From Nitrospirota bacterium (GTDB taxonomy: Bacteria > Nitrospirota > Thermodesulfovibrionia > Thermodesulfovibrionales > JdFR-88), in assembly GCA_021789935.1 (NCBI GenBank), contig JAJYIR010000012.1, positions 1-64,000 of the forward strand: a stretch of DNA of 64,000 bases. The letters are read 5' to 3'. The notes under the pieces are model-generated. The model did no database searches and was not told where the DNA came from. It worked only from the letters and a program-made list of their open reading frames with translations. Made by a program: the position numbers and the translations under genes. Shown piece by piece: positions 26,803 to 54,495 of this stretch. Position 1 is the stretch's first letter; each line of letters begins with the position of its first letter.

Positions 26803-27270
26803 ATGACCAGCGCGCCGGAAAAAATAAAGAGTGTGCTTGGGGAGCAGATAAAGGAGTATAAAAATCTGCTCGCCCTGTTGAGGATGGAGAGGAAGCACCT
26901 CATCGACTTCGACCAGGAAGGAGTTGAGGACCTCGCCAAACAAAAAGACACCGCGGTGCTCAAGTTGCGGCTCCTCGAACAGGAGAGGCTCCGGCTTATG
27001 GAAGAGTTTTCACGCGTCAGCGGGCGCAGGGACGGCATGAGTCTGCAGGATGTCTCAAGCATGACCGGCGATGGCAGTTTCCTCGATATCCGCCGCCAGT
27101 TGATATCTCTGCTGCAGGGTATACAGGAACTGAACGAGTTCAACCGGATATTAATAGACAGGTCGCTGCAATATATCGGGGATTCTATCGATTTCCTGGG
27201 AAAAGCCGGCGCCAGGACAGGCCGCGTTGACGGCAGGACCAAGGGCCTGGTGGTATCGAGGCAGATCTGA
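26803..27270 (+). CDS. flgN: Hook-filament junction chaperone FlgN
   Basis: FlgN-type chaperones escort FlgK and FlgL to the export gate. The 155-residue protein is almost entirely helical, with heptad-like patterns such as LLALLRMERKHLIDFDQEGVE and IQELNEFNRILIDRSLQYI. It has no membrane segment. The assignment rests on this pattern and on its place between flgM and flgK. Its stop overlaps the flgK start by one base. Confidence 0.85.
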   Translation: MTSAPEKIKSVLGEQIKEYKNLLALLRMERKHLIDFDQEGVEDLAKQKDTAVLKLRLLEQERLRLMEEFSRVSGRRDGMSLQDVSSMTGDGSFLDIRRQLISLLQGIQELNEFNRILIDRSLQYIGDSIDFLGKAGARTGRVDGRTKGLVVSRQI

Positions 27271-28892
27271 TGAGCGGGCTGAATGACATCCTGAATATCG
27301 CGCAATCGGGCCTGTTTGCAAGCCAGACAGCCTTAAACACGACAAGCAATAATATCTCCAACGTAAACACGCCGGGTTATTCCGTTGAAACCACACAGCT
27401 TGAACCCGTTGATTATATCGATTTAAGCGGCAGCTCTGGCAGCCCGGGGGGCGTAACCGTTGCCGGGATACAAAGACAGAACAATTCTTTTCTTCAGGCC
27501 CAGATATATCAGGCGCAGCAGAACATGAGCGGCGCGGACTCTTCCAGTAATACGCTGGGACAGGTCGAGCAGGCATTCAATGAGACCGGGCAAACCGGGC
27601 TGTCGACGTACTTCAGTAATTTTGTGAATGATTGGCAGCAAGTCGCGTCGAACCCGTCCGATTCCGCCGGCAGGACCGCCCTTTTGGGAGACGCTCAAAC
27701 GCTGGTTTCCGCGGCCAAGGACACTCAAGGCGCCATCCAGGACGCCGTAAAACAGGCAAACGATGCGATTTCCGGCACTGTGAAGACGGTAAACTCCCTG
27801 GCCGCGAACATCGCACAGCTTAACAATCAGATTGCCGAAGCCCAGGGGGACACTACGGGCGGCCTGAGCCAGCTGCTGGATGAACGCGATAACCTCATGA
27901 ACCAGCTTTCCCAGTCCATCAGTTTCAACTTCTATACGGACAACACCGGCCAGGTGACCATTATAAGCGGAATGCAGAACCTGGTCAGCGGAAGCCAGGC
28001 CAACACGCTTTCCGCCCAGCAGGATGCCAATGGCGATTACCAGCTTTATCTTGCCGGGACGAATATCACCTCGGATGTTACGGGAGGTTCCATGGGCGGG
28101 GTCATATCCGCCAGGAACGCCGCTGAGACGCAGGGGCTATTGCCTCTAAACCGGTTCGTGGCGGCCCTTACCCAGCAGGTAAACATAACCCAGGAACAGG
28201 GCTACGGGCTTGACGGCAGCACAGGAAACTCTTTTTTCAGTCCGCTAACTCTTGCCACAAGCGCCGATTCCAGCGCCTCTATAGCGGCTTCGGTCACTAA
28301 CGAAAGCCAGCTTACCCTGGACCAATACAATATAAAAATAGACGGAAGCGGGAACTATAACGTTTATGACACCCAGACTGGCTCGCTTGTGACATCCGGT
28401 ACATATACATCGGGCGGGGCAATCAATTTTGAAGGCATACAGGCCACTATAACCGGGGCGCCCGCCGCCGGAGATACCTTTACGATTGACCCGCTTAAAA
28501 ACGCGGTAAGCGGTTTCCAGGTGGCCCTCACGGACGGCAGCCAGGTGGCAGCCGCATCTTCATCATCCGGGGTGCCCGGGGACAACTCAAATGCTCTCGC
28601 CATGTTGAACACGCTGAACAACACGCAGGTTTCCGGCCTCGGCGGGCAGACCCTTATGGGTTATTATCAGGGCATCGTTTCTACCACCGGGACCGCAAGC
28701 GCATCCGCCTCTGACAGCCAGACTTTCGAGAGCAACCTTCTGGCCCAGTTAAACCAGCAGCGAGACTCCATATCCGGGGTCTCTATTGATGAGGAGTCCG
28801 TAAATCTCATAAAATACCAGCAGGCGTACCAGGCTGCGGCGAAGGTCGTAGAAACGACGAGTCAACTTTTTCAGACCCTGATGAGCATATGA
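27270..28892 (+). CDS. flgK: Hook-filament junction protein FlgK
   Basis: FlgK is the first junction protein between hook and filament. The 540-residue sequence starts SGLNDILNIAQSGLFASQTA, has NNISNVNTPGYSVE near the N-terminus, and ends with the conserved D0 helix VNLIKYQQAYQAAAKVVETT. The middle is Ser/Thr/Gly-rich and variable, as in the family. It is coupled to flgN and followed after 13 bases by flgL. Confidence 0.96.
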   Translation: MSGLNDILNIAQSGLFASQTALNTTSNNISNVNTPGYSVETTQLEPVDYIDLSGSSGSPGGVTVAGIQRQNNSFLQAQIYQAQQNMSGADSSSNTLGQVEQAFNETGQTGLSTYFSNFVNDWQQVASNPSDSAGRTALLGDAQTLVSAAKDTQGAIQDAVKQANDAISGTVKTVNSLAANIAQLNNQIAEAQGDTTGGLSQLLDERDNLMNQLSQSISFNFYTDNTGQVTIISGMQNLVSGSQANTLSAQQDANGDYQLYLAGTNITSDVTGGSMGGVISARNAAETQGLLPLNRFVAALTQQVNITQEQGYGLDGSTGNSFFSPLTLATSADSSASIAASVTNESQLTLDQYNIKIDGSGNYNVYDTQTGSLVTSGTYTSGGAINFEGIQATITGAPAAGDTFTIDPLKNAVSGFQVALTDGSQVAAASSSSGVPGDNSNALAMLNTLNNTQVSGLGGQTLMGYYQGIVSTTGTASASASDSQTFESNLLAQLNQQRDSISGVSIDEESVNLIKYQQAYQAAAKVVETTSQLFQTLMSI

Positions 28893-28905
28893 GAGGTATG
28901 AACAC

Positions 28906-29913
28906 ATGAGAGTCAGTTCTTTTTCGATCTACAACCAGGTCTCCAGCTCCCTGGACCAGGACATGTCCACCATAACCCAGCTTGAAAACCAGCTTTCCTC
29001 CGGAAAGAAGTTCAGCAAGAACTCCGATGATGTAACCGGCGTCATAAGCGCCATGGACTATAACCTGGACCTGAACCAGGACAGCCGTTACTTAAGCAAC
29101 ATCGACAGCGCAAATGCCCTCATGGGCGATGAGGCGACCGCAATGTCTTCTACAATGGATGCGCTCAACAACGCCAAGGAGATCGCGCTTGAGGGAGTAA
29201 GCGGCACAACAAACAGCCAGGATATGGCGGCGTTGGCCCAGCAGGTGTACCAGATAAGGGACGAACTGCTTGGATACGCGAACACGAAGACCGCGGACGG
29301 CTCAAGCGTGTTTGCCGGTTATCAGACGCAAACTGACGCATTCAACAATTCTACTTATGCATACCAGGGGGATTCCGGAATCGTAAACGCGAAGATATCG
29401 AATTCCCAGCTTATGCCGGTGAACGTGACAGGAAGTGACGCCTTCTCTTTTACCCTTTCAGCCCCAGTGACCGTCACGCAGGCAGACGGTTCGTCTTTTA
29501 CCTATACGCAGGGCAGCGGCACCACTATAAACGTCCAGATAACGGACAGTAGCAATAATGTCGTGGACAGCTTCAGCTTCTCCAACTTCATGCAGCTTAC
29601 CAACCTGCTGGGAAATGCGCTTAATAGCGGCGACACCAGGAGGGTCAGCGCGCTGATGACCCCGCTTGACGACGCCGTCAACCAGGCCGCAAGCGTAAGC
29701 TCAGAAATAGGCTCGAGGCAAGACAGGCTTACCAACCAGCAAAGCTCCATCCAACAGGACCAGGCCAACACTCAAGTCCTCCTTTCGGGCGTTCAGGACG
29801 ACGATTTGGCTCAAACCGCAACCCAGTTGGCAAAGTATCAGGCGGCCATGCAGGCCCTGGAACAATCAACGGCAAATATATCCTCTCAGACCCTGCTTGA
29901 TTTTCTGAAGTGA
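28906..29913 (+). CDS. flgL: Hook-filament junction protein FlgL
   Basis: FlgL is the second junction protein and is flagellin-like at both ends. The 335-residue sequence begins MRVSSFSIYNQVSSSLDQDM, contains LENQLSSGKKFSKNSDDVTG, and ends with a helix rich in Gln and Ala. Length is normal. A weak hairpin (GCCCC...GGGGC) and a GAGAATTCTC palindrome lie in the 105 bases before csrA; neither is convincing as a terminator. Confidence 0.94.
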   Translation: MRVSSFSIYNQVSSSLDQDMSTITQLENQLSSGKKFSKNSDDVTGVISAMDYNLDLNQDSRYLSNIDSANALMGDEATAMSSTMDALNNAKEIALEGVSGTTNSQDMAALAQQVYQIRDELLGYANTKTADGSSVFAGYQTQTDAFNNSTYAYQGDSGIVNAKISNSQLMPVNVTGSDAFSFTLSAPVTVTQADGSSFTYTQGSGTTINVQITDSSNNVVDSFSFSNFMQLTNLLGNALNSGDTRRVSALMTPLDDAVNQAASVSSEIGSRQDRLTNQQSSIQQDQANTQVLLSGVQDDDLAQTATQLAKYQAAMQALEQSTANISSQTLLDFLK

Positions 29914-30018: not shown

Positions 30019-30258
30019 ATGCTTGTATTGACGAGAAAATCCGGGGAGGCCGTAAGGATAGGGGAAGACATCACCGTTACTGTGGTCGAGGTCAGGGAGG
30101 GGCAGGTCCGGCTGGGTATCAATGCGCCGCAGGGCATCAGGATATATCGCGAGGAGGTCTATGAACGGATAGTCAAGGACAACCTCGTGTCCTCCTCCAT
30201 CTCCATTGACGAGTTCAGTAAAATAAGAGAGGCGGTGAAAGGTGAAGATAAAATTTAA
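30019..30258 (+). CDS. csrA: Translational regulator CsrA
   Basis: CsrA is an RNA-binding dimer that recognises GGA in hairpin loops and blocks ribosome binding. The 79-residue protein starts MLVLTRKSGEAVRIGEDI and has the RNA-contact segment IRIYREEVYERI. The longer C-terminus is typical of FliW-dependent CsrA types. It overlaps fliW by 17 bases, so the pair is made together. The likely target is the flagellin leader at 40.55-40.66 kb. Confidence 0.97.
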   Translation: MLVLTRKSGEAVRIGEDITVTVVEVREGQVRLGINAPQGIRIYREEVYERIVKDNLVSSSISIDEFSKIREAVKGEDKI

Positions 30259-30631
30259 GACCTCCCGTTTTGGAGACCTGGAGGTTGAAGACTCCAGGGT
30301 AATAGATTTTCCGCATGGGATACCCGGGTTTTCCTCCCTTAAGCGGTATGTCCTTATGGACTACAAGGACACCCCTTTAAAATGGCTCCAGTCTGTGGAT
30401 GACCCGCATGTGGCCTTCATTGTTGCGTCACCCGAGACCGTGACAACCGGATATCAGGTAAATGTGGACGAACCGGCCAGGCGTTCCCTGGCCCTTGCGC
30501 GGGAGGAGGACCTTGCCGTGCTTCTTATCCTCAGGGTGCAGACAGGCAAGGTGATTGCCAACCTGAAGGCCCCTCTGCTTTTAAACTCATCATTGATGAG
30601 AGGCATTCAGTTCCTGCCTGAGAGGCTTTAA
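30242..30631 (+). CDS. fliW: Flagellar assembly factor FliW
   Basis: FliW binds CsrA and flagellin. When cytoplasmic flagellin is low, FliW is freed, binds CsrA and relieves repression of flagellin translation. The 129-residue protein has the family pattern RFGDLEVEDSRVIDFPHGIPGF and VASPETVTTGYQVNV. Start is GTG at 30242, inside the csrA 3' end. Normal length. Confidence 0.95.
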   Translation: MKIKFKTSRFGDLEVEDSRVIDFPHGIPGFSSLKRYVLMDYKDTPLKWLQSVDDPHVAFIVASPETVTTGYQVNVDEPARRSLALAREEDLAVLLILRVQTGKVIANLKAPLLLNSSLMRGIQFLPERL

Positions 30632-30938: not shown

Positions 30939-33900
30939 ATGCTGGACTATTTGACGAATGGCAAAGCGGTCGTTACGATTGTCGAGCCTCCGGGGTATCC
31001 TCACAGCGCTGCATTCCGGGAGATTGCCGAGACCGTTTATTACGGGCTTAAGGCGCAAATAAAAAAAATCGGGGTAAACAACTTTCTTGATGACGGTTTG
31101 AACATTATTTTTGGGGCACATCTGCTTACCCCGAAGCAGATGAACTCTCTGCCCGAATGCTCGGTGATATACAACCTTGAACAGGTAGATCCCTCTTCCA
31201 TGTGGAAGGGGATAAAACCCCTGCTCGGACGCTTTCCGGTCTGGGATTACAGCCTTCGCAACATAGAGGCGTTCAGATCCATGGGGTATGGGGGTGCCGT
31301 TTTCCATGTGCCTGTCGGGCACCGTCCGGAGATGACGCGCATCCAGCCTGCTCCCGTTCAGGATATAGATGTTCTTTTTTATGGCTCCATAAACGAACGC
31401 AGGGAAAAAATACTGGCGGCGTTAAGGCGCCAGGGACTCCGGGTGGAGGCGCTTTTCGGCGTTTACGGCGCGGCGCGCGATGCCCGCATCTCAAGGGCAA
31501 AAGTGGTCCTCAATCTCCATTTTTACGAGTCCAGCATATTTGAGCTGGTGAGGGTCTCCTATCTGCTTTCAAACGGGAAGGCCGTAGTTGCCGAATGCAA
31601 TGAGAATACGGAAATAGACCGGGACATTGAGGGAGCGTTCATCTCTGCCCGCTATGACCGGCTTGTCCACGAATGCAAAGCTCTTGTTAAGGATGGCGAA
31701 AGAAGAAAGGCGCTTGAAACCTCTGCCCTGAAGAGGTTTTCCGCCAGGGATGAGGACGTTTATCTGGATGCGGGCCTGGCGTGGGCAAATTCTTTCCTGG
31801 AAAAGAAGATGAAAAGCGGAGGCCGCGGTTTTTCCCTTTCTTCGACCGAAGATGCGCCAAAACGTATGAATCTGGGTAGCGGCAAGGATTTTCGACCTGA
31901 ATTTCTTAACGTGGACTGGAATGATTACTGGTGCCCCGATATAATCCTGAACCTGAATGAGCCAATCCCGTTCGGTAAGGCGCTGCCCTCCACCCGGTTC
32001 GGAGATCTGGTTCTCGAGGAAAACAGTTTTGACGAGATCATGGCAAATGATCTTTTTGAGCACATACGAGAGCTTCAGGCCCTGATGACGTCGTGCCTTA
32101 AACTGCTCAAGGATGGGGGAGAGCTGAAACTGAAAGTCCCTTACGACTTAAGCTATGGCGCATGGCAGGACCCCACTCATATCCGGGCTTTCAATGAGAA
32201 GAGCTGGCTTTATTACACGGATTGGTTCTGGTATATGGGCTGGACGGACGCAAGGTTCGATCTGGCCTCCATGAAATTAAATCTGAGCGATTATGGGAAC
32301 ACATTGCGGGAAAAGATGCCGGATGAGTCCCTGGTGCGGCAGCCGCGGGCGGTTGACAATATGGAGGTCGTATTGCGCAAACGCCCATTGACACCCCAGG
32401 AGCTCGATTTTGAAAAAGAACAAAACAAAGGCATCAAACCTTACGTGTTGGCTGAAGGGAAGAAGGCTGCCGCTGATTCCCATGGCGGACCAGGGGCCAG
32501 CTTTTCCGGCCATAGTGAAGAAAAAATATCCGCTGGTTCAGACGTCCCCGATGCGGCTTCAGTAGAGAATGAGTTTTTTGTTGAGAGGAAGGAGGCCGCC
32601 GGCACGAACGGGCTCGTCTCTATTGTGCTCCCGGTGCCGGACCGGCTGAAAGAGATACAGAAGTGCCTTCAAAACATTGAGAAGCATACCCCTGAACAGC
32701 ATGAGATAATCCTGGCCGCCCATGGATTAGGGAGCGGTGCCGCAAGGTGGATAAAAAAGCAGGCGGAAGCCAATCCCGGATACAAAATCGTTGAAACAAG
32801 CGGGGCCGGCTTTGCGACCATGTGCAATGAGGGCGTCAGGGCATCATCGGGCGGGTACATAGTTTTTCTGGACAGCGGCGTGGAAGTGACCGAGGGCTGG
32901 CTTGCCGGGATGCTTGCCTGCATGGAAAATATTGAGGGCGGCCCCGCAGAGGATGTCATTGGCGGCCCCCCCATAGTGGGCCCGATGTGCAACGTTGCGG
33001 AAGGGTTTCAGAAAGCCGGCTGGTTGGAGGCAACAAAGACGGGTGGAGGCGAAAAGAAGGGCAGCTCTGGCTGGCAGGAGTACGCGCCGGCCTTCAGGGC
33101 CGATAATCTGCACCGCCGGGTCCCCGCGCAGAGACTGGACGATTTTTGCATAATGGCCGGCCGCACGTTATTTAAGAAAACCGGTTTTTTTGATGAGGCA
33201 TTAGTGTCCCGGCCCTATGCCGTGCTGGATTTCATTCAGCGCGCGGTGCTCGGAGGCTCAAGGTGCTTCATAGCTGCAGATACGCTTGTTTACAGGGACC
33301 CGCAGGAGGCTGAAAAAGGATCGCAAGAGGAAAAAGACGACGGCAGAAAAGCCTTCGATGAGAAATGGAGTCCCATGGATCCTCAAAGCCCGGAGGCGAA
33401 AAAGCTGGGAGCTATAAGACTTTTTGAATCCGGAGTGCAGGCGGACCACATGGGCGACCTTGGAAAGGCGGTGGAGAACTTTGTCGAGGCCATAAAGAAT
33501 TCCCCCATGGATAATTCGCCGTTCGTTAAGGGGCTTTATTACCGGTTCGCGCGTATGCTCATCCGGGGCGGGGAGTTCAGGCACGCGCTGGAAGTCCTCT
33601 CGAAGTTGCCAGAGGGGCCCGGTACAGGGACGGCTGAACCGGACTTTTTTGACCCGGTGCTTGATAAAAAAGAGGCCGCAGGGCTTGAACTTGCGGGATA
33701 TTGCAGAGACGGCCTTGGAGAATCTTTGGAAGCGGATGAACTCGCCCGAGGCGCGCTTAAGCTGCACGGGGGGGCGGGGGCCCTTAACCTGATGGGCCTT
33801 ATTGAGTTCAAAAAAAATTCGCCGGCAAACGCCGCTTCATATTTTGAGGAGGCGATAAAGGCCGATGCTGGTTACGGCGAGGCGTATGCCAATCTCGGTG

Positions 33901-36900
33901 CGCTCAGATGGACGGAAGGCAGGAAGGAAGAGGCGTTTGGTTTTTTTGAAAAGGCTTTTGTCCTGTCCCCCGCTGCGGAAGATATAATCACCAACTATTA
34001 CAGCGCTCTTACCGAGATGTGTTCCGTTAAAAAGGACATTCTGGACAAGGCCATACCGATCGTAAAACAGGCCATCGTCTTTTATCCGGCAAAAAAACGT
34101 TTAAGGCATATTCTAGCGGAGTTTTACTTCAGGAGCGGCCGAAACAGGGATGCGCTCGAAGTGCTTGAAGATGGCTTTTTGTCCTTCGGGGTTGATGATG
34201 AATCGCTTTCCATCGCTCTGAAGATAAGAGACCTGCTTGGGCCGGAAGATATCGTTCCCGGCGACGGCAAGGGCGAAAAAACTCTGTCCATCTGCATGAT
34301 AGTAAAAAACGAGGAAAAAAACATCGTGCGCACTCTCCTGAATCTGAGGCCGCTTGCGGACGAACTGATAGTTGTGGATACGGGCTCTTCCGACCGAACG
34401 AAGGATATCTCCAGGGCGCTTGGGGCACGGGTCTTTGATTTCGACTGGACGGGAGATTTCTCGGCCGCGAGGAACTTCTCCATCTCAATGGCAAGGGGCG
34501 GCTGGATATTGGTGATGGACGCGGATGAGGTCATATCCCCGTCAGACCGCAAGGAGCTGAGGGCGCTTATCAGGGGCCACAGGCAGGCCTATGGCATCAC
34601 AACAAGAAATTACGTCCTTTCTCCGGGCGCCTGGGGATGGACGGAAAACGATGGCGCATATCCGGAGCAGGCCGGAACGGGCTGGATACCCAGCACGAAG
34701 GCAAGGCTCTTTCCCAACGATGAGAAGATACGTTTCAGAAACCCCGTGCACGAACTGGTGGAGGTCTCGCTTGAGGAAGCCGGCATAAAAGTTGTGCTCT
34801 CGGGAATACCAATTCACCATTATGGGAAACTGGTCGCGGGCAAGGTTAAGGAAAAAGGCACCGATTATTACGAGATGGGCAAGGCGAAGCTTTCCGGCAA
34901 GGGCAGTGATGATTTTAAGGCGGCCATGGAACTTGCAGTACAGGCGGGAGAGCTTGGCAGGTGGGAAGAATGTCTCGAAAACTGGAGGAAGGTCTCAGAC
35001 ATCAGACCCGGTTACAAGGCGGCGTACCTGGGGATGGCGGACGCATTGTGGGGGCTCGGCCGCTATGAAGAGGCCATGCAGGCCATAGACAAGGGTTTCG
35101 AGTCGCCGCTTGACCGGATGGAGACAAGTCATTTATATGCGCGCTGCCAGGTATTGTCAGGCAAGGCTGAGGCCGCGGTCTCATTGCTTGAAAAAAGCAG
35201 GAGCAAGCACCCCATGGTCCTGTCCACACTGGCCCTGGCGTATCTTTGCACAGGCAGGAAGGAAAGGGCAAAAGAGCTTGCAAAACAGGCTGGCCGGGTC
35301 CTGAATATGTCCGCCCTGTTTGCCAATTATGCCAAGAAATTGATAGAAACAGGCAGGCCGGATTATGCGGCCCCGATTATTGAATATCTGACGGGAAAAA
35401 AGATCGCGGACCCCGCAATGCTGGCCCACGGTTATCTTAAGGAAGCGAGTTCAGGCAACCCGGAACTTGCCCTGTCCGGCGGACCGGACCAAAAAGATGA
35501 AAAAAATCCGGTTTCTTTGTGCAAGGACCCTTCTGCCTCCGCCGGAAATGTGGTCCCCGGCGGAAGTCCTCAAAAAGGCAATATTTTGATAATAGACCCG
35601 CGTTTGCCTTGGTTTGACAAAACATCGGGGTCATTAAGGCTCTTTTCCATCCTGCGGCTTCTGAGAAAACAGGACTATCATGTTACGTACATTGCGCGCG
35701 ACGGCATGGACCAGGATGATTACACAAGGGTGTTACAAAAGATGGGAATTGAGGTCTATGCCACAGATCCGCAAAAGTTGCGCCAAATCGGGGTGGGAAT
35801 ACAGGGCAAGAATTTTCCCGATATCGATTTAAAGCGAATACTGACCGAACGGTCTTATGACATAGCAATATTGTCCTTTTATGATGTCGCGCTTCAATAT
35901 CTGCCTGAAATACGGGCACATTCCCCAAAAACAAAGATACTGATAGACACTGTTGACATCCATTTTGTCCGGGAACAGAGAATGGCCCAATTAAACAACA
36001 GTAAAAAATTGCTGGAAAAGGCGAAGGAGACAAAGGACAAGGAACTGAGTATTTACGGCAAGGCCGACGCCGTTATAACGGTCACCGAAAATGACTGGGA
36101 ACATATAAAGGGTTATCTCCCATCGGTTGCGCACTATGTAATACCAAATATCCATGCCTCCGATAACGGCCCTGTGGAATTGAATGATCGGGCCGGCCTG
36201 GCATTTGTGGGGAATTTCAATCATTTGCCAAATGTAGACGCTGTAAGTTATTTCCTGCGCGAGATATTCCCAAAGGTCAGGGAAAAGCTGCCGGATATAA
36301 CATTAACGATTATTGGACCATACCTCCCAAAAGATATTGTCTCTCTGAAGAGCGACGATATTATTGTGGCGGGCTATGTGCCGAAAACTGAACCATACCT
36401 GAAGAAGGCCAGGGTCTCCATCGCCCCGCTTAGATACGGCGCAGGCATGAAGGGGAAGATAGGGGAGGCAATGGCGCACGGGGTGCCCGTGGTCACAACT
36501 TCCGTTGGCGCCGAGGGCATGGGCCTCACTCACGGCGCAACGGCCATGATAGCGGATTCGCCTGAAAGTTTCACGGAGTGCATTGTTAAATTGTGCTCCG
36601 ATGACCGGCTCTGGCACAAAATATCGGCCGATTCAAAGAAATTTATAGCGCAGAACTACTCGTTTGAAAAAGTTGGCGCGCAATTGGCCCACATGTTGAG
36701 AAATGTGACAGGTGAAGGACGGACGTCTCCCGGGGCAGGCGTGGACATTGCGCGGGCGGGGGGCAATGTGCTTGTGCTTGGCATATATCTGGCTGACCAG
36801 ATGAACAACGTTGATGAGATCGTAAGACAGTTCAATGCGCCAGGCAAATGGCGTGTGGTCCAGAAATGGGCGGCGATAGGGGAGAGAAGGGTTAATGGAC

Positions 36901-37466
36901 ATGTTCAAAAAGTTACATGCAAACAATTTCAAAAGGGCCTTCCAAAATTCACCCTTTTAAACGGGATGCTCTCAGGTGAAGATCTGCGGAAATATGATTA
37001 TATAATTATTTGCGACGATGATATAAAAATGGAAGAAGGTTTCCTGGACAAATATCTCGACCTCGTAGCCAAACATGATTTTGCCCTCGCCCAGCCGGCC
37101 AGGACCCATAACAGTTATATAGACCACCATTTTGTGGAACAATTGCAGGGGCTCCAGGCCAGGCAGACGCGCTTTGTCGAGATCGGCCCGTTTTTTTCCA
37201 TCCGCAAGGACATTTACTCTGATATCTTCCCGTTTGATGAGACCTCGCCCATGGGATGGGGCTATGATTTTGTGTGGCCATGCCTTATAGAGCGCCTAGG
37301 GCTGAGGATGGGGATAGTGGATGCCGCTCCGGTGGAGCATAGCATGCGAAAGCCTGTTAAGAACTACAGCTATGAGGAGGCCCGCTCCTCCATGGAAAAA
37401 TACCTTTCCAAAAACAGAAATATGCCCAAAACCGAGGCTTTTAAGATATTGGAGTCCTATGCGTAA
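30939..37466 (+). CDS. Giant multidomain glycosyltransferase with TPR segments
   Basis: One unbroken frame encodes 2175 residues. Modules in order, with approximate residues: a CgeB/GT-B-like module (1-295; FYESSIFELVRVSYLLSNGK); a methyltransferase-like module (308-490; RMNLGSGKDFRPEFLNVDW); a GT2-like module (557-790; FLDSGVEVTEGW, without a clear DxD); TPR repeats (820-1090); a GT2 module (1115-1310; SICMIVKNEEKNI, VMDADEV); more TPR (1320-1490); a GT4 module (1547-1925; FVGNFNHLPNVDA, GEAMAHGVPVVTTSVGAEG); and a last GT-A-like module (1940-2175; IICDDDIKMEEGF). No signal peptide or membrane helix is seen, so it is cytoplasmic. A sigma-54 promoter and its place between fliW and flagellin suggest flagellin glycan assembly; surface polysaccharide synthesis is the alternative. 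Confidence 0.85.
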   Translation: MLDYLTNGKAVVTIVEPPGYPHSAAFREIAETVYYGLKAQIKKIGVNNFLDDGLNIIFGAHLLTPKQMNSLPECSVIYNLEQVDPSSMWKGIKPLLGRFPVWDYSLRNIEAFRSMGYGGAVFHVPVGHRPEMTRIQPAPVQDIDVLFYGSINERREKILAALRRQGLRVEALFGVYGAARDARISRAKVVLNLHFYESSIFELVRVSYLLSNGKAVVAECNENTEIDRDIEGAFISARYDRLVHECKALVKDGERRKALETSALKRFSARDEDVYLDAGLAWANSFLEKKMKSGGRGFSLSSTEDAPKRMNLGSGKDFRPEFLNVDWNDYWCPDIILNLNEPIPFGKALPSTRFGDLVLEENSFDEIMANDLFEHIRELQALMTSCLKLLKDGGELKLKVPYDLSYGAWQDPTHIRAFNEKSWLYYTDWFWYMGWTDARFDLASMKLNLSDYGNTLREKMPDESLVRQPRAVDNMEVVLRKRPLTPQELDFEKEQNKGIKPYVLAEGKKAAADSHGGPGASFSGHSEEKISAGSDVPDAASVENEFFVERKEAAGTNGLVSIVLPVPDRLKEIQKCLQNIEKHTPEQHEIILAAHGLGSGAARWIKKQAEANPGYKIVETSGAGFATMCNEGVRASSGGYIVFLDSGVEVTEGWLAGMLACMENIEGGPAEDVIGGPPIVGPMCNVAEGFQKAGWLEATKTGGGEKKGSSGWQEYAPAFRADNLHRRVPAQRLDDFCIMAGRTLFKKTGFFDEALVSRPYAVLDFIQRAVLGGSRCFIAADTLVYRDPQEAEKGSQEEKDDGRKAFDEKWSPMDPQSPEAKKLGAIRLFESGVQADHMGDLGKAVENFVEAIKNSPMDNSPFVKGLYYRFARMLIRGGEFRHALEVLSKLPEGPGTGTAEPDFFDPVLDKKEAAGLELAGYCRDGLGESLEADELARGALKLHGGAGALNLMGLIEFKKNSPANAASYFEEAIKADAGYGEAYANLGALRWTEGRKEEAFGFFEKAFVLSPAAEDIITNYYSALTEMCSVKKDILDKAIPIVKQAIVFYPAKKRLRHILAEFYFRSGRNRDALEVLEDGFLSFGVDDESLSIALKIRDLLGPEDIVPGDGKGEKTLSICMIVKNEEKNIVRTLLNLRPLADELIVVDTGSSDRTKDISRALGARVFDFDWTGDFSAARNFSISMARGGWILVMDADEVISPSDRKELRALIRGHRQAYGITTRNYVLSPGAWGWTENDGAYPEQAGTGWIPSTKARLFPNDEKIRFRNPVHELVEVSLEEAGIKVVLSGIPIHHYGKLVAGKVKEKGTDYYEMGKAKLSGKGSDDFKAAMELAVQAGELGRWEECLENWRKVSDIRPGYKAAYLGMADALWGLGRYEEAMQAIDKGFESPLDRMETSHLYARCQVLSGKAEAAVSLLEKSRSKHPMVLSTLALAYLCTGRKERAKELAKQAGRVLNMSALFANYAKKLIETGRPDYAAPIIEYLTGKKIADPAMLAHGYLKEASSGNPELALSGGPDQKDEKNPVSLCKDPSASAGNVVPGGSPQKGNILIIDPRLPWFDKTSGSLRLFSILRLLRKQDYHVTYIARDGMDQDDYTRVLQKMGIEVYATDPQKLRQIGVGIQGKNFPDIDLKRILTERSYDIAILSFYDVALQYLPEIRAHSPKTKILIDTVDIHFVREQRMAQLNNSKKLLEKAKETKDKELSIYGKADAVITVTENDWEHIKGYLPSVAHYVIPNIHASDNGPVELNDRAGLAFVGNFNHLPNVDAVSYFLREIFPKVREKLPDITLTIIGPYLPKDIVSLKSDDIIVAGYVPKTEPYLKKARVSIAPLRYGAGMKGKIGEAMAHGVPVVTTSVGAEGMGLTHGATAMIADSPESFTECIVKLCSDDRLWHKISADSKKFIAQNYSFEKVGAQLAHMLRNVTGEGRTSPGAGVDIARAGGNVLVLGIYLADQMNNVDEIVRQFNAPGKWRVVQKWAAIGERRVNGHVQKVTCKQFQKGLPKFTLLNGMLSGEDLRKYDYIIICDDDIKMEEGFLDKYLDLVAKHDFALAQPARTHNSYIDHHFVEQLQGLQARQTRFVEIGPFFSIRKDIYSDIFPFDETSPMGWGYDFVWPCLIERLGLRMGIVDAAPVEHSMRKPVKNYSYEEARSSMEKYLSKNRNMPKTEAFKILESYA

Positions 37467-40401
37467 AGGGACTGAACAGGCCCGCCTCGCCCCCGGTCCA
37501 AATCCGTTTCAGGGGCTTGCAAATACCGTTGCCTTAAGCGTGATAATCTGCACGTACAACCGCGCTGAGCTGTTAGGAAAGGCCCTTGAAGGGTTTGAAA
37601 GGCAGACGCTTGGCAGGGATAAATTCGAGGTCATCATCATAGATGACGGATCATCCGATCAAACAAGGCAGGTTGCGGAGGCGTTTGCCGGCAGGCTGAC
37701 GTTAAGGTATTTCTACCAGAAAAACGCCGGGCTGGCCGCGGCCAGAAACCATGGCGTATATGTTTCAAGGGGCAGGATACTCTTTTTCTCCGATGATGAT
37801 GATGTCGCGGCGCCGTCACTGCTTGAAGAGCATCTCGATACGCATATGCGGTATCCGAAGCCAAATTTTGCCGTCCTGAACTATACCGGGTGGGCTCCCG
37901 GACTTCATGTGACGCCTCTTATGCATTTTGTTACCGAGGTGGGCTGTTTTTTATTCTCATACCCGCACATAAAGCATGGCAGCATATTGGACTATACCTA
38001 TTTCTGGGGCGGGCGGACTTCGTGCAAGAGGGATTTCCTGATAGAGAACGGTGTTTTTAACTCTGTGTTCCGCTTCGGATGCGAGGACATTGAGCTTGGC
38101 TACCGGCTCTCCAAAGCAGGCCTCAAGGTCGTCTTTAATAAAAACGCCGTGTCTTACATGGCCCGCCCCGTGAGTTTCGAAGAATTTTGCAACAGGCTGA
38201 TAAAGCAGGGCAGGTCGCAATACATTTTTAGCGAAATGCATAGCGATCCCGCCGTTCAAAGCTGGGCCGAGATACCGATGGCCGGAAAATGGCCGGAAAT
38301 AGAAGGCTCATTCGACAGCATGAAAAAAGCCGCGATGGAGCTTGATACATTTGCAAACAATGAATTGAAAAAAGGCGTGGTAATAGACGTTACTGCCAGA
38401 GAGCATCTTTTCAAGGCCTACTGGTGGGTCTTCAGAGCCTGCAAGATAAAGGGCATGGCCCAGGCCAAGGCGGAGCAGGAAGGCGGCCATTGCAAGGCGC
38501 TGAAGCAGGTGCCGGATGCGGCGCAGCTCCCTTCTGAACAAAAAGCCGTAGTCTCATCTGGAACCGGGCAAAACGAGGCATTGGCGCTGCCGTTTGACCA
38601 GTATCAAAGATACAGAATGGTCGCCGATATAATAAACAGGTTCAGAGGCGGGGATGAAAGATTCAGCATAATTGATGTGGGCGCGGGTTATGAGGAAAAT
38701 CTGAAAAAATTTCTGCCTGGGGACAATATATACTGCCTTGACAAAGATTATCCGGAATCTCTTCTGCAGAAGGGCAATTTTATTTCAGGAGGGTTCACCA
38801 GGTTAAGCACGGAGGAAAAATATGATTTTGTTGTCTCGATGGACTGCTATGAGCATATAGCGCCGGCAGACAGGGAATTGTTTATAGACAGACTGGCCGG
38901 CACCTCCAAAATGGCCACGATCATCGCGGCACCATTCGATACCGAAGGCGTCAGTGAGATGGAGATGCGCGCCAACGAATTATACAGAGTGGCACGTGGC
39001 ACAGACTACAAATGGTTGAAGGAACACATTCAAAACGGGCTTCCGTCGCTGGATTTCACTTTGCGGCTTGTGAAAAGCCGGGGTTTTGAACCCGCCATTG
39101 TCCCAAATGGATATCTTGAGCGCTGGATTGAGATGATGCCCATATACCTGCTTGCAGGGGAAAGGAGCGAGTTTTCAGAGATCCTGCGCGCTCTTTCGAT
39201 TTTTTACAATGTGAATTTTTATCTGGATGACAACAAAGGCCCTGCATACAGGCATGTACTGATTATAAATAAAATGAAATGGCCTGAAACGTCTTCTTTC
39301 GATGATCTGGTTTCTCCGCGGCCGGAAACTGATGAAGATATGGACTTCAAAAAACAATTGCTTAATGCCTACCTTGGGCAAATAAAATGTCTGTTCCAGA
39401 TGGTCGAATCCGAAGACAAGGAATCTTTTTTGGGAGAACTGGACCAGAGAAATAATGAAGTTAAAAATCTGGAGGCCGAACTTAAGGAGAAAATCGCTCG
39501 TAAGACCTCCATAAGGGACAATGATGGCCGGTTTCTGACCAAGTGGGTCAATTTTGAGTTTTGTTCTTCATGCAATTTGCGCTGTAAATGGTGTTCCCTG
39601 GACCACTCGAAAAAAAAATGGCTCATGACCGGTGAAATACTGGCCAAGGCCCTGGATGAACTTGCGGAGAGCACAAATTTCGATATAGACCGAATCGATT
39701 TGCATAATGCCGGAGAAGTGCTGCTGCATCCGGACCTGGAAAGAATGCTCCTCGTTATCAAAGAGAAAAAGGAGGCATTCCGCCGTAAGCCGACTGTCCA
39801 CCTTCTGACCAATGCAATGCTTCTTGATGAAAGGCGGTCTGCAATAATCACCGGATCGGACGCCCTGGATGAGATAAGGTTCAGTGTCGACGGCGGGAAT
39901 CCGGAAAATTATAAAGAAATAAGGCGCGGGGGCGATTGGAACACAGTAAAAAATAATGTTTTGAATTTCATCGGTCAAAACAGGGAAAAAGGGAACAAGA
40001 TCAAAACCGGGGTGATCTGTATCGTGCCGCCCGGGATGCCTCTTAAAACAGATTGGATGGATGATGATTTCCGCGCCCTTTTTTCCCGGATTGACAACGT
40101 TGAACTCAGGCATCCCCACAATTGGGATGGCAGCAAGGACTTGCATCTGGAAAGTAATATCCATAAAACCGAAGGCCAGTTATGCAAGTTTCTTCTAAAA
40201 AACCTTGTCGTTCTGCCAAACGGGGATGTGACAGTGTGCTGCGCGGACCTCAATTCGCGTGGAGTCGTCGGAAATATAGCGGAAAATTCACTTGAGGAGA
40301 TATATCTTTCAGCGCGGCGTTTGAGCATGCTCGATCTGTACAGAAACGGAGAGATGGAGAATATAGTTTTATGCAAGAATTGCGCCGGTTATTATGAATA
40401 A
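37459..40401 (+). CDS. Glycosyltransferase-methyltransferase-radical SAM/SPASM fusion
   Basis: ATG at 37459 (GGAG at 37451-37454) overlaps the previous stop by eight bases and gives 980 residues. A longer in-frame start at 37321 lies inside the upstream gene. Modules: a GT2 domain (about 24-300; LSVIICTYNRAELL, FFSDDDDVAAPS, FGCEDIELGYRL); a SAM-dependent methyltransferase-like domain (about 400-560; IIDVGAGYEENL, SMDCYEHI); a coiled linker; and a radical SAM domain with C705-x3-C709-x2-C712. A SPASM-like C-terminus follows (about 908-976; VVLPNGDVTVCCADLN, CKNCAGYYE). The combination suggests sugar transfer plus radical modification of a sugar or peptide. Substrate unknown; flagellin is the best positional candidate. 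Codon use looks somewhat more AT-rich than in neighbouring flagellar genes by eye. Confidence 0.87.
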   Translation: MRKGTEQARLAPGPNPFQGLANTVALSVIICTYNRAELLGKALEGFERQTLGRDKFEVIIIDDGSSDQTRQVAEAFAGRLTLRYFYQKNAGLAAARNHGVYVSRGRILFFSDDDDVAAPSLLEEHLDTHMRYPKPNFAVLNYTGWAPGLHVTPLMHFVTEVGCFLFSYPHIKHGSILDYTYFWGGRTSCKRDFLIENGVFNSVFRFGCEDIELGYRLSKAGLKVVFNKNAVSYMARPVSFEEFCNRLIKQGRSQYIFSEMHSDPAVQSWAEIPMAGKWPEIEGSFDSMKKAAMELDTFANNELKKGVVIDVTAREHLFKAYWWVFRACKIKGMAQAKAEQEGGHCKALKQVPDAAQLPSEQKAVVSSGTGQNEALALPFDQYQRYRMVADIINRFRGGDERFSIIDVGAGYEENLKKFLPGDNIYCLDKDYPESLLQKGNFISGGFTRLSTEEKYDFVVSMDCYEHIAPADRELFIDRLAGTSKMATIIAAPFDTEGVSEMEMRANELYRVARGTDYKWLKEHIQNGLPSLDFTLRLVKSRGFEPAIVPNGYLERWIEMMPIYLLAGERSEFSEILRALSIFYNVNFYLDDNKGPAYRHVLIINKMKWPETSSFDDLVSPRPETDEDMDFKKQLLNAYLGQIKCLFQMVESEDKESFLGELDQRNNEVKNLEAELKEKIARKTSIRDNDGRFLTKWVNFEFCSSCNLRCKWCSLDHSKKKWLMTGEILAKALDELAESTNFDIDRIDLHNAGEVLLHPDLERMLLVIKEKKEAFRRKPTVHLLTNAMLLDERRSAIITGSDALDEIRFSVDGGNPENYKEIRRGGDWNTVKNNVLNFIGQNREKGNKIKTGVICIVPPGMPLKTDWMDDDFRALFSRIDNVELRHPHNWDGSKDLHLESNIHKTEGQLCKFLLKNLVVLPNGDVTVCCADLNSRGVVGNIAENSLEEIYLSARRLSMLDLYRNGEMENIVLCKNCAGYYE

Positions 40402-40551: not shown

Positions 40552-40662
40552 TAAAGGTTCAGAGCGGCTCCAGAAGGAGGTGACCCGCAAGACTTTCGGA
40601 GCTCAGCAAAGGACCGTTAAACGGCAAGGATGCCGGAACTAAAATTCATGGAGGAAGAACAA
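40552..40662 (+). promoter_or_regulatory. Structured flagellin mRNA leader with CsrA-type sites
   Basis: The roughly 110-base leader has several GGA triplets. One sits in the loop of a perfect hairpin, CGGCA-AGGA-TGCCG (40622-40635), which is the classic CsrA target form. Another pair lies in the flagellin ribosome site GGAGGA (40650-40655). An upstream hairpin CTCC-AGAA-GGAG (40568-40579) overlaps AAGGAGGTGA (40574-40583), a perfect match to the 16S 3' end with no start codon at usable distance. CsrA binding at the ribosome site would block flagellin translation; FliW would relieve it. Confidence 0.65.
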
Positions 40663-41481
40663 ATGTCATTAGTAATCAACACGAACCTTTCATCGATCGA
40701 CGCACAGCGGAACCTGACTGTGACCGGGCAGGACCTTAAAGTAGCAATGCAGAGGCTTTCTTCGGGCCTCAGGGTCAACTCGGCAAAAGACGACTCCGCC
40801 GGTTTTCAGATCGCAAGCAGCATGACCTCACAGATAAACGGTCTGAACCAGGCGGTAAGCAACACCAACAACGCGAACTCCATGGTGCAGACCATGATGG
40901 GCGCCATGAACCAGATCCAGGACTCCCTGCAGAGGATGAACGAGCTTGCGGTAGAAGCCTCTGACGGCAGCACCCAGAACGACCTCACATCAATCAACGA
41001 CGAGTACCAGGCGCTCATGTCGGAAATAGACACTATCGCCAACCAGACCAAGTTCAACGGCACGAACGTGCTCAACGGCTCTACTGCGATAACATTCCAG
41101 ATAGGTTATGAAAACAGCTCGAACGACCAGCTGGCAGTGACCACTGTCAACGAGACGTCCACCGCTCTGACCATAAACAGTACGGATCTGTTATCACAGG
41201 CGAACGCCCAATCGGCCATCAGCTCGATTTCGAGCGCTCTCAACAAGCTCAGCCTGGATGATGGAGCGCTGGGCGCGGTCAGCAACAGGCTGGACACCCA
41301 GGCGGCCAACCTCCAGAACGTTTCAGAGAACACCACGGCCGCACGGTCCCAGATAGTAGACGCAGACTTCGCCGCGGAGACCGCTGAAATGACGAAAGAT
41401 ACGGTCTTGCAGCAGGCCGGTATATCGGTCCTGGCTCAGGCCAACCAGCAGCCGCAGATGGTGCTTAAACTGTTGCAGTAA
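40663..41481 (+). CDS. fliC: Flagellin
   Basis: Flagellin is the filament subunit. ATG at 40663 has GGAGGA with a seven-base spacer and gives the usual start MSLVINTNLSSIDAQRNL; an in-frame ATG at 40630 lies inside the leader hairpin and is rejected. The N-terminal D0/D1 (about 1-135) contains LSSGLRVNSAKDDSAGFQIA, and the C-terminal D1/D0 (about 190-272) ends SVLAQANQQPQMVLKLLQ. The 272-residue length leaves only a short variable middle, rich in Thr, Ser and Asn, where modification sites might lie. It is followed by a strong terminator. Confidence 0.96.
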   Translation: MSLVINTNLSSIDAQRNLTVTGQDLKVAMQRLSSGLRVNSAKDDSAGFQIASSMTSQINGLNQAVSNTNNANSMVQTMMGAMNQIQDSLQRMNELAVEASDGSTQNDLTSINDEYQALMSEIDTIANQTKFNGTNVLNGSTAITFQIGYENSSNDQLAVTTVNETSTALTINSTDLLSQANAQSAISSISSALNKLSLDDGALGAVSNRLDTQAANLQNVSENTTAARSQIVDADFAAETAEMTKDTVLQQAGISVLAQANQQPQMVLKLLQ

Positions 41482-41544: not shown

Positions 41545-41865
41545 ATGGAAATCAAGCCGTCTAATCAGTCTGGGGTGAACCCTGCTTCCGGATTGGCGAA
41601 AGCTGCAACGGAGGCTGAACGGACGCAATCCGCCGGCAAGGGGCAAAAGGCAGCAGAGGAAAGCTCGAGGAAGAAGGCCGTGCAGCAGACCGCGACGCAG
41701 GCGCAGGACAAGACGATTTTTGCATTGGACAGCGAAAACAGGGTGGTCATACAAAGGCTTGACGCAAATGGCAAGGTCCTCCAGCAGATACCGCCGGAGG
41801 AGTTCGGCCCGGTGGCCAAGGAGCTTAAGGCGCTTATGAAAAACATTTTCAGCAGGGAGGCGTAA
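41545..41865 (+). CDS. flaG: FlaG family protein
   Basis: FlaG proteins influence filament length in several bacteria. The 106-residue protein has a low-complexity Ala/Lys/Gln N-half and a conserved C-half, TIFALDSENRVVIQRLDANGKVLQQIPPEEF, typical of FlaG. It lies between the flagellin terminator and fliD, the usual position. AGGGGTGAG just upstream serves as a ribosome site. Confidence 0.9.
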   Translation: MEIKPSNQSGVNPASGLAKAATEAERTQSAGKGQKAAEESSRKKAVQQTATQAQDKTIFALDSENRVVIQRLDANGKVLQQIPPEEFGPVAKELKALMKNIFSREA

Positions 41866-41868
41866 AAA

Positions 41869-43374
41869 ATGGCCGAATGGACGGGTCTGGTATCAAGTTC
41901 CACCGGTATGTATTCGGGGCTTAACATCTCCCAGATAGTCAGTACTATTGTGCAGGCGGACAGCCAGCCCCTGACCGACCTGCAACACAAGGTTAGCGCG
42001 GACAACGCCCAGATAAGCGCATACGGAAGCCTGGCAAGCTCCCTTTCGAGCTTGAATACGCTGTCGCAGAGCATGAGTCTACCCACCATTTACGGGATGG
42101 CGGCCACCTCCTCGGACAGTTCCGTACTTACGGCAACGGCAAGCTCTACCGCAGCTTCCGGCACTTACAGCATAACGGTAAACCAGCTCGCGCAGTCGCA
42201 GAGCATATATTCGGCGGGTCTGGCCTCGGAGACTTCCACGGCTGTAGCCAACTCAGGAGACACGGGGTTTCAAATCCAGGCAGGTAACGGGAATTCAGCC
42301 TCCATAACATACGATTCGGCAAATAACGTCTTTGACTTTGGAGGACAGACGTACTCCAATAGCCTCGATGGAGTGATGAACGCAATCAACGCGGCAAGCC
42401 AGGCTGACAGCCTTGGGGTGGCCGCATCAATCATAAATAACGGGTCCACATACCAGCTTGTCTTATCCTCAAACAGTGCCGGTGCGGCAAACAGAATGAA
42501 GATAATGGTCGAGCCGTCGGGAAGCTCATCATATGGTGACGCCACCGGCGCATCCGGAATCAACCAGCTCGCCTTCGACCCGACCTATAATACCGGCGGC
42601 AGTGTAAGCGGCTACGGATCGTACACGAACATGCAGCAGTCCATGGCCGGCCTTGATGCCAGCTTCTCATTAAACGGCATCAGCGTAACCCGGCCCACGA
42701 ATGACATTACCGATCTTGTAAGCGGGGTGACGATAAACCTTCTTCAGTCCAGCTCAAACCCGGTCAACCTGACCGTAGCTAACGACAACGCCGGGTTCAC
42801 CACCCAGATAAACAGCTTTATCTCCACTTACAACACGGTCATGAGCGCAATAAACGGGGCCATAGGCAACCAGTCCAAGCAGGGCGCGCTTTACGGTGAC
42901 AGCCTTACAAAAGATCTTCGCGGCACGCTCTATGACATGACTACGAATCCGTATAACGGGACCTCACTTGCGGCCCTTGGCTTAACGCACGATGATACCG
43001 GCAATCTTGCGCTCAATACGACAGCATGGAATGCCGCGCTCGCCGCGGACCCAAACCAGGTGCTTGGCGCGATAAACCAGATGGCCTCATCGCTCCAGTC
43101 CACGATGAATTCTTACATAAACAATATTATTCCTAATGCCGAATCAGGGTTGAACAGCCAGATATCGCTCTACCAGCAGCAGGAGCAGCAGCAGCAAAAC
43201 GAGCTCAATACCATACAGCAGGCGCTGACGCTGGAGTTCCAGAACATGGAGCAGACCCTCAGCACGATTGACTCGCAAAGCAGCGCCATGTCAAACATGT
43301 TGAGTTCAGGCTCGACTTCCTCATCCACATCGACCGGCACAAGTTCAAGCAGCAGCGGAGGGACCACGGCATGA
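41869..43374 (+). CDS. fliD: Filament cap protein FliD
   Basis: FliD caps the filament and folds flagellin at the tip. The 501-residue protein has the N-terminal pattern SGLNISQIVSTIVQADSQPLTDLQ and a C-terminal coiled helix rich in Gln (YQQQEQQQQNELNTIQQAL). Unusually, the protein ends in about 27 residues of almost only Ser, Thr and Gly after SSAMSNML. Such a tail is disordered and could be a glycosylation target. It overlaps fliS by four bases. Confidence 0.95.
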   Translation: MAEWTGLVSSSTGMYSGLNISQIVSTIVQADSQPLTDLQHKVSADNAQISAYGSLASSLSSLNTLSQSMSLPTIYGMAATSSDSSVLTATASSTAASGTYSITVNQLAQSQSIYSAGLASETSTAVANSGDTGFQIQAGNGNSASITYDSANNVFDFGGQTYSNSLDGVMNAINAASQADSLGVAASIINNGSTYQLVLSSNSAGAANRMKIMVEPSGSSSYGDATGASGINQLAFDPTYNTGGSVSGYGSYTNMQQSMAGLDASFSLNGISVTRPTNDITDLVSGVTINLLQSSSNPVNLTVANDNAGFTTQINSFISTYNTVMSAINGAIGNQSKQGALYGDSLTKDLRGTLYDMTTNPYNGTSLAALGLTHDDTGNLALNTTAWNAALAADPNQVLGAINQMASSLQSTMNSYINNIIPNAESGLNSQISLYQQQEQQQQNELNTIQQALTLEFQNMEQTLSTIDSQSSAMSNMLSSGSTSSSTSTGTSSSSSGGTTA

Positions 43375-43742
43375 TAAGTCAGCAGTATGCAAGCAACGCG
43401 TACATGAAAACCATGGTAAACACATCGGCATCCAAGCTGGATCTGGTCATAATGCTCTATGACGGCTCGATAGAGTTCCTCAAAAAGTCCGTGTTTTACA
43501 TGAACCAGAAGGACGTTGGTAAAAAGCTCCTTTATATGGACAAGGCCATGGCCATAATACATCACCTTATGGCGACCCTGAACATGGAGGCGGGCGGCGA
43601 GATAGCCCAAAATCTGCAAAAGCTGTATATGTACATGCTTACGGAGCTTACCATTGCGAATATAAGGAACGACGCAGAGAAGATAAACCGTGTGGAGGGG
43701 CTCCTTAACACTCTCCGGGAAGGCTGGAAAGGGATAAGATGA
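43371..43742 (+). CDS. fliS: Flagellin chaperone FliS
   Basis: FliS binds the flagellin C-terminus and prevents early polymerisation. The 123-residue protein has the family pattern YASNAYMKTMVNTSASKLDLVIMLYDGSIEFL and ends with the helix NRVEGLLNTLREGWKGI. It overlaps fliD before it and the next small gene after it by four bases each. Confidence 0.95.
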   Translation: MISQQYASNAYMKTMVNTSASKLDLVIMLYDGSIEFLKKSVFYMNQKDVGKKLLYMDKAMAIIHHLMATLNMEAGGEIAQNLQKLYMYMLTELTIANIRNDAEKINRVEGLLNTLREGWKGIR

Positions 43743-53380: not shown

Positions 53381-54475
53381 ATGTGCGATGAGTTTTTTCC
53401 CCCGATAGGAAAAGGCGGCAGCGGGGGTGGAAGCAAAAAGAAAAAGACCGTTCCGGTATCACTGGCAGCCGGAATGGTGCTTGCCCACGATATTACCGAG
53501 GTACGTCCGGATTTTAAGGGGCGGGCGTTCAGGAAGGGGCACATCGTCAAACAAGAGGATATCGCCCACCTGATGAGGCTGGGAAAGGAACACCTTTATG
53601 TCCTTGCTCTGGCCCCTGAGGAGATGCACGAGGACGAAGCGGCGTCAGTGATGGCGGCAGCCGTTATGGGCAAGGGCGTGGAAGCGGGGGAGTGCCGCGA
53701 AGGGAAGATCAATGTGTCCGCCTCTATTGACGGGCTTTTAAAAGTAGACAAAGAGGCGCTGATGGAGTTCAACATGCAAGGCGAAATAATGTGCGCCACC
53801 TTGCACGATGGCACCGTTGTGCGGAAAGGGCAGACGGTAGCGGCCACACGAGCAATACCGCTTGTCGTGGACCGCCGGGCTGTGGAGCTGGCTGCCGGCA
53901 TTGCACGCGAAAAAGGAGGCATCGTAAAGGTCCTGCCGGTCAGAAAGCCCAAAACAGGTGTTGTGATTACCGGCGAAGAGGTGTTTTCGGGACGGATAAA
54001 GGACGCCTTTGCCCCCGTCATCAGGGGGAAAATAGAGGCATTGGGCGGGGAAATAATCGGTATCGCCTATGCCCCCGATGATGAAAACTTCATCGCGGCA
54101 AGGCTAAGGGAATTCCTGAATAAGGGGGCGGACCTGCTTATCGCGACAGGTGGAATGTCCGTGGATCCGGACGACGTCACCAGGTTTGCCATAAGGGATT
54201 TAGGCGCCCGGGACATCACATATGGGGCGGCGGTGCTGCCAGGCTCGATGTTCCTTTCGGCCACCATAGAGAACGCGAAGGGTGCTGTTGTGCCAGTCTT
54301 AGGAGTACCTACCTGTGCCATGTACGGCAAGACAACCATATTGGACCTCATGCTGCCAAGGATACTTGCGGGAGAGGAGATTGGCAGGAGGCAGCTGGCG
54401 GAACTTGGGCACGGGGGCCTGTGTCTCCACTGCAGCGTGTGCCGCTGGCCCGTTTGTCCTTTTGGAAAATTTTGA
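53381..54475 (+). CDS. MoeA-like molybdopterin-binding protein
   Basis: The 364-residue protein is related to MoeA/MogA proteins of molybdenum cofactor synthesis. An N-terminal MoeA-like part has VSLAAGMVLAHDITEV and FRKGHIVKQEDI. The MoCF-binding domain (about 190-330) has GVVITGEEVFSGRIKD and LLIATGGMSVDPDD. The C-terminus ends in a Cys-rich tail, CLHCSVCRWPVCPFGKF, unlike classic MoeA and able to bind metal. It lies 20 bases before moaA. True insertase activity is not certain. Confidence 0.85.
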   Translation: MCDEFFPPIGKGGSGGGSKKKKTVPVSLAAGMVLAHDITEVRPDFKGRAFRKGHIVKQEDIAHLMRLGKEHLYVLALAPEEMHEDEAASVMAAAVMGKGVEAGECREGKINVSASIDGLLKVDKEALMEFNMQGEIMCATLHDGTVVRKGQTVAATRAIPLVVDRRAVELAAGIAREKGGIVKVLPVRKPKTGVVITGEEVFSGRIKDAFAPVIRGKIEALGGEIIGIAYAPDDENFIAARLREFLNKGADLLIATGGMSVDPDDVTRFAIRDLGARDITYGAAVLPGSMFLSATIENAKGAVVPVLGVPTCAMYGKTTILDLMLPRILAGEEIGRRQLAELGHGGLCLHCSVCRWPVCPFGKF

Positions 54476-54495
54476 CCTGTTCCCGGAGATCCATC

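Follow-up and report, generated by a model that had tools for sequence, protein, structure and literature searches.

Flagellins commonly receive glycans in the cytoplasm, ahead of export, and enzymes of the GT2 type use nucleotide donors to transfer sugars. A single gene in front of the flagellin gene of an uncultured Nitrospirota bacterium combines a GT2 domain with a methyltransferase (MT) domain and a radical SAM (rSAM) domain. The window, i.e. the whole stretch of 64,000 nucleotides that was analysed, displays the gene order flgK, flgL, fliW, giant glycosyltransferase, fusion gene, flagellin, flaG-like, fliD and fliS (Table 1). An original prediction, made from the sequence alone, had proposed a GT2-MT-rSAM fusion in this flagellin locus, and both frame and fusion were borne out: the gene starts with an ATG that has GGAG a short way upstream, runs to its stop codon (40399-40401) as one open frame without internal stops, and overlaps by eight bases with the giant glycosyltransferase gene, whose stop (37464-37466) sits inside its start. 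Elsewhere in the window, a formate-dehydrogenase-like gene (57820-60525, minus strand) has one interruption only, an in-frame TGA codon (residue 359, NCARV-U-HAPTVAGL), and hence probably encodes a selenocysteine enzyme; a tRNA-Sec candidate in the genome scores just over the cut-off.

Table 1. Features of the flagellar locus and of the fusion gene, in positions of the window.
Feature	Position	Strand	Remarks
FlgK, FlgL	27270..29913	+	FlgK 27270-28892, FlgL 28906-29913
FliW	30242..30631	+	PF02623
Giant glycosyltransferase	30939..37466	+	2175 aa; N-terminal GT-like part, MT-like, GT2, TPR, GT2, TPR, GT4, GT2/DUF707-like
GT2-MT-rSAM-Twitch fusion gene	37459..40401	+	980 aa
GT2 domain	37534..38208	+	residues 26-250; PF00535 E 3.3e-26, PF13641 5e-12
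DDDD, DxD-type metal/nucleotide-sugar motif of GT2	37792..37803	+	residues 112-115; invariant across three species
Putative class I SAM-dependent MT domain	38587..39333	+	residues about 377-625; D406-V-G-A-G, D428, D462..E465-H466
Predicted long helix joining MT to rSAM	39418..39507	+	residues 654-683; block pLDDT mostly 80-91
rSAM core	39544..40173	+	residues 696-905; PF04055; model pLDDT 81.8; BtrN best PDB match
C705-x3-C709-x2-C712, predicted SAM-binding [4Fe-4S] cluster site	39571..39594	+	in all homologues aligned there
C854, candidate hydrogen-atom donor	40018..40020	+	end of strand 849-855; conserved across the genus (three species), missing in most relatives
Twitch domain	40174..40398	+	residues 906-980; C909-x17-C927-x44-C972-x2-C975, one predicted auxiliary cluster
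Flagellin	40630..41481	+	283 aa; PF00669, PF00700; D0/D1 only; no cysteine
FlaG-like, FliD, FliS	41545..43742	+	

Along the chain a GT2 domain is followed by a putative class I MT, the rSAM core and an auxiliary Fe-S domain. Both marks of the GT2 family, the PF00535 fold and a DxD motif, are present: Glycos_transf_2 matches best over residues 27-133 (92.6 bits; cut-off 23.3), the DDDD pointed out originally is D112-D115, and by sequence the closest solved relative of this part is chondroitin synthase. The predicted methyltransferase-like domain scores poorly in Pfam (Methyltransf_23, 20.2 bits, below the cut-off of 27) and its profile gave one marginal match alone in the PDB (1ve3, E 0.005). 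Motif I (D-x-G-x-G), the acidic D428 and D462..E465-H466 (D..EHI) are invariant in five homologues, some at only 33-35% identity. As a full-length AlphaFold2 model from a three-sequence alignment reached a pLDDT of 37.4, the folds of the MT and GT2 domains and the contacts between domains are read from the sequence. Scans of viral sequences for homologues of the GT2 and MT domains found none.

The rSAM part was modelled separately (AlphaFold2, residues 641-980, with 12 relatives, encoded on related and viral contigs, in the alignment), with a mean pLDDT of 81.8 and a pTM of 0.80. Lack of an rSAM barrel in a predicted structure had been named as an outcome that would speak against the fusion; the model comprises a barrel and an auxiliary-cluster domain. 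The cysteines of the CxxxCxxC motif stand at residues 705, 709 and 712 as predicted, within this barrel as in BtrN-type enzymes, and Radical_SAM (PF04055) matches residues 701-843 above its cut-off (E 1.4e-12). BtrN was the top match in Foldseek (E 7e-13), in VIA-align 2 (Z 23.6, rmsd 2.5, 234 of 246 residues) and in a sequence profile search of the PDB (E 3e-22; next 9e-14); ChlB, CteB, DesII, SuiB and anSME followed in VIA-align 2 with Z of 20-21, and the Twitch dehydrogenase SpeY matched the model with Z 14.8. Essentially all of the 52 homologues aligned over these positions retain the three rSAM and four Twitch cysteines, G922 and G752-E753 (exceptions: two at G752, one at E753).

The cysteine-rich end had been described as SPASM-like, which holds in so far as an auxiliary-cluster domain is present: SPASM (PF13186) matches residues 909-975 above its cut-off (E 1e-9), and cysteines occur near the C-terminus at positions 909, 927, 928, 972 and 975. 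A SPASM domain binds two clusters and is defined by CX9-15GX4C-gap-CX2CX5CX3C-gap-C, whereas Twitch is a shortened SPASM with one cluster (PMC6231123, PMC9012708). A two-cluster SPASM was rejected, as only C909-x12-G922-x4-C927 and C972-x2-C975 are found and the chain ends five residues on with no more cysteines, so that the seven-cysteine motif is absent and the domain is a one-cluster Twitch with four cysteines, in a pattern shared by all homologues aligned over this region. A profile alignment shows their spacing, C-x17-C-x44-C-x2-C, to be identical to that of BtrN. An ordinary Twitch-type relative, MoaA (radical SAM and Mob_synth_C), is encoded 14 kb off in the window (54421-55449).

BtrN, the butirosin 2-DOIA dehydrogenase (PDB 4m7t), thus resembles this part in barrel, Twitch domain and auxiliary cysteine spacing, but it is free-standing, about 250 aa long and part of antibiotic synthesis, whereas here the matching region, at about 20% identity, forms the C-terminus of a 980-aa chain in a flagellin locus. 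SpeY and the epimerases HygY and NeoN also belong to the rSAM-Twitch or rSAM enzymes and act on sugars or aminocyclitols, but they are free-standing natural-product enzymes without GT or MT fusion. The auxiliary cluster of BtrN has four cysteine ligands and is the proposed electron acceptor in 2-DOIA oxidation (PMC9012708). Since the clustering of Twitch and SPASM enzymes does not follow function (PMC6231123), the match to BtrN leaves the reaction unfixed, and the chemistry is not decidable from sequence.

We assign roughly even chances to the fusion being a cytoplasmic multi-activity enzyme of the flagellin glycan, which adds a sugar, methylates and carries out a radical modification, most likely a BtrN-like oxidation; flagellin glycosylation, a sugar as substrate, the order of the steps and oxidation over epimerisation are what we infer. 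The GT2 domain would transfer a sugar to the flagellin glycan or to flagellin itself and so extend the product of the upstream giant glycosyltransferase, and the MT domain would methylate. The rSAM-Twitch domain would remove a hydrogen bound to a sugar carbon and, most likely, oxidise a hydroxyl to a ketone as in BtrN, with the auxiliary cluster accepting the second electron. Oxidation is favoured because of the BtrN-like fold and the predicted, fully cysteine-ligated cluster site. A flagellin locus of genome G028 (L100, 5386-13169), which came from a separate flagellin search (G028:C138) apart from the 43 rSAM regions discussed below, was also counted for oxidation, since its rSAM-Twitch gene overlaps an aminotransferase-sulfotransferase fusion and a ketone would be expected to go to an aminotransferase next. 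A carbamoyltransferase lies nearby, and between it and the rSAM-Twitch gene a WbqC-like gene was recognised by eye. No aminotransferase was found in the window's own island.

The main rival to oxidation is epimerisation, in which the same flagellin-glycan role is kept and the rSAM-Twitch domain, like HygY or NeoN, inverts a sugar carbon, with C854 or C702 perhaps returning the hydrogen. C854 lies near the expected active site, where it could act as donor, and each of the genus's three species retains both residues. Precedents are HygY, a Twitch epimerase that, going by the title of Besandre 2021 (cited in PMC10991966), becomes a dehydrogenase once a single cysteine is lost, and NeoN, which uses Cys249 (PMC10991966). 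However, C854 and C702 are both absent from the flagellin-linked sister clade introduced below, and we regard epimerisation as rather unlikely.

The original prediction allowed the radical chemistry to act on a glycan or directly on flagellin. A sugar is the more likely substrate, because relatives of the rSAM domain occupy sugar-biosynthesis neighbourhoods. Most regions around these relatives, other than those at flagellin loci, are surface-sugar clusters; a glycosyltransferase match was present in 29 of 40 regions versus none of 20 control regions from the same genomes, and at least two such matches in 12 of 40 versus none of 20 (Fisher p 0.005), while some rSAM regions were shorter than the controls, a bias that runs counter to the observed difference. 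Direct modification of the flagellin polypeptide in the manner of RiPP maturases, e.g. crosslinking or alpha-carbon epimerisation, could account for a gene that adjoins flagellin and for the RiPP enzymes SuiB, CteB, ChlB and SkfB among the fold matches (Z 19-21). We consider it improbable, for the relatives reside mainly in sugar clusters, BtrN, which matches best, is a sugar-alcohol enzyme, Pfam reports no peptide-recognition domain in the fusion, and the flagellin has no cysteine, which excludes thioethers on flagellin altogether.

The distribution of the MT and rSAM domains bears on whether a sugar modified by the fusion would belong to flagellin. This type of MT occurs in seven of 395 Nitrospirota genomes: three of the window's genus, two of another family in the same class (G188 and G369) and two distant ones. 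In all five same-class genomes a matching rSAM is fused to the MT or encoded beside it. G188 and G369 carry an rSAM-Twitch gene, directly after it a carbamoyltransferase-MT-TPR fusion gene and then a gene for a B12-binding rSAM protein, a cassette that lies downstream of fliW-flagellin-fliD-fliS in G188 and beside fliS in G369. The carbamoyltransferase-fused MT of the neighbour gene at these flagellin/FliS loci (L058/L059) is the best-matching MT outside the genus, and in a midpoint-rooted tree of 52 rSAM domains the L058/L059 pair is sister to the window's genus (local support 0.97). MT and rSAM, two independent domains, thus each lead to the same pair of loci, and they are fused in one lineage and neighbours in the other. 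At L059 (7442-17889) and L058 (1-8867) the B12-binding rSAM protein has TPR and the cassette also includes a GT2-GT4 fusion; two radical SAM enzymes stand together in this island. More distant rSAM-Twitch relatives near flagellin were found in G381, beside a pyruvyltransferase-MT fusion, and in G379, with NeuB and a cytidylyltransferase.

In the window itself, the fusion sits between fliW and flagellin. At the same spot G007, of another genus in the same family, has a giant glycosyltransferase with a differing domain set and then a stand-alone GT2 of 368 aa, which is 72% identical to the GT2 part and overlaps the upstream gene by the same eight bases; in G009 the GT2 is missing from that spot. 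The domain set of the giant glycosyltransferase varies between close genera, a WbsX domain having been gained in G007 and G009. Flagellin glycosylation by Maf and nonulosonic acid was rejected as a model for this locus, as Maf (PF01973) had no match in the source genome and the NeuB family matched weakly (43.8 bits).

Synthesis of another surface polysaccharide (O-antigen or exopolysaccharide), with an accidental adjacency to flagellin, would agree with the general surface-sugar clusters in which most rSAM relatives lie and with the presence of flagellin or FliS in only four of 43 rSAM regions outside the genus. Against it, the spot directly before flagellin is kept in two genera, in one of them by the GT2 alone, and flagellin/FliS loci of a distant family again hold the MT-rSAM pair, so that this reading, too, has little probability.

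The fusion is most simply explained by the addition of MT and rSAM to a GT2 that was already resident. The metagenome-assembled genome (MAG) WY3.bin97 (G003/L009), a sister species, encodes the whole chain at 77-78% identity over residues 13-980, and it is flanked, as in the window, by the giant glycosyltransferase and the flagellin. In MAG WY1.bin133 (G001/L010), a second sister species, the chain is encoded at 67-76% identity up to a contig end within the rSAM domain; the terminal bases of this public MAG assembly (L010 3479-3486, AGATCGGA) resemble residual Illumina adapter. Between window and L009, dN was 0.13 and dS 0.89 overall, and dN was well below dS in both linkers too; the fusion, linkers included, is under purifying selection. 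The architecture differs among relatives through added modules, L009 having an extra N-terminal methyltransferase (Methyltransf_24) and L010 a further one (Methyltransf_11) between GT2 and MT. A frameshift or misassembly joining separate genes, the second outcome named in advance as adverse, is next to impossible in view of independent MAGs at 67-78% identity and purifying selection in both linkers, even though the known carriers of the fusion are MAGs only.

With more reserve than for the enzyme's general role, we propose that the chain may be an assembly line in which GT, MT and Twitch rSAM act in turn on the same flagellin sugar, yielding a radical-derived (keto, epimerised or rearranged) sugar, with exchangeable modules that vary by species. 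All of its domains are already known; the apparently new part is their order in one chain and the placement of an rSAM enzyme at a flagellin island. Islands already described for flagellin glycosylation (Maf/nonulosonic acid; viosamine with GTs and methyltransferases) likewise place sugar genes including methyltransferases beside flagellin, but here Maf is lacking, the NeuB match is weak and an rSAM-Twitch enzyme is present. Phage proteins from IMG/VR (L154 128-2272, L156 3300-5831, L192 3129-5222) resemble the fusion in an MT ahead of rSAM and a SPASM-like auxiliary-cluster domain in one chain, but their MT is of the FkbM family (PF05050), no GT2 was found in them and they stem from viral contigs; an rSAM of this kind is therefore not unique in being fused to an MT. 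Annotated phages yielded no MT-rSAM fusion, and no plasmid record matched the fusion with 80% coverage. The full domain order was not found outside the genus among the 395 Nitrospirota genomes, plasmids and annotated phages; beyond Nitrospirota, the contig scan used short near-exact patterns, which would miss distant fusions. The domain order, originally noted as unfamiliar from flagellar systems, was likewise not found in the open-licence literature, nor was any rSAM enzyme linked to flagellin glycosylation, which, from open-licence papers only, is weak evidence.

Antibiotic synthesis already provides examples of radical SAM enzymes that rework sugars. Should the proposed function be true, radical sugar chemistry of this type would also serve to decorate a bacterial organelle, and the locus would offer a ready test case, with donor, methylation and radical steps in one chain beside one small flagellin. 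The comparison of species indicates that flagellin islands swap tailoring domains as fusions, which could explain the diversification of flagellar surface chemistry.
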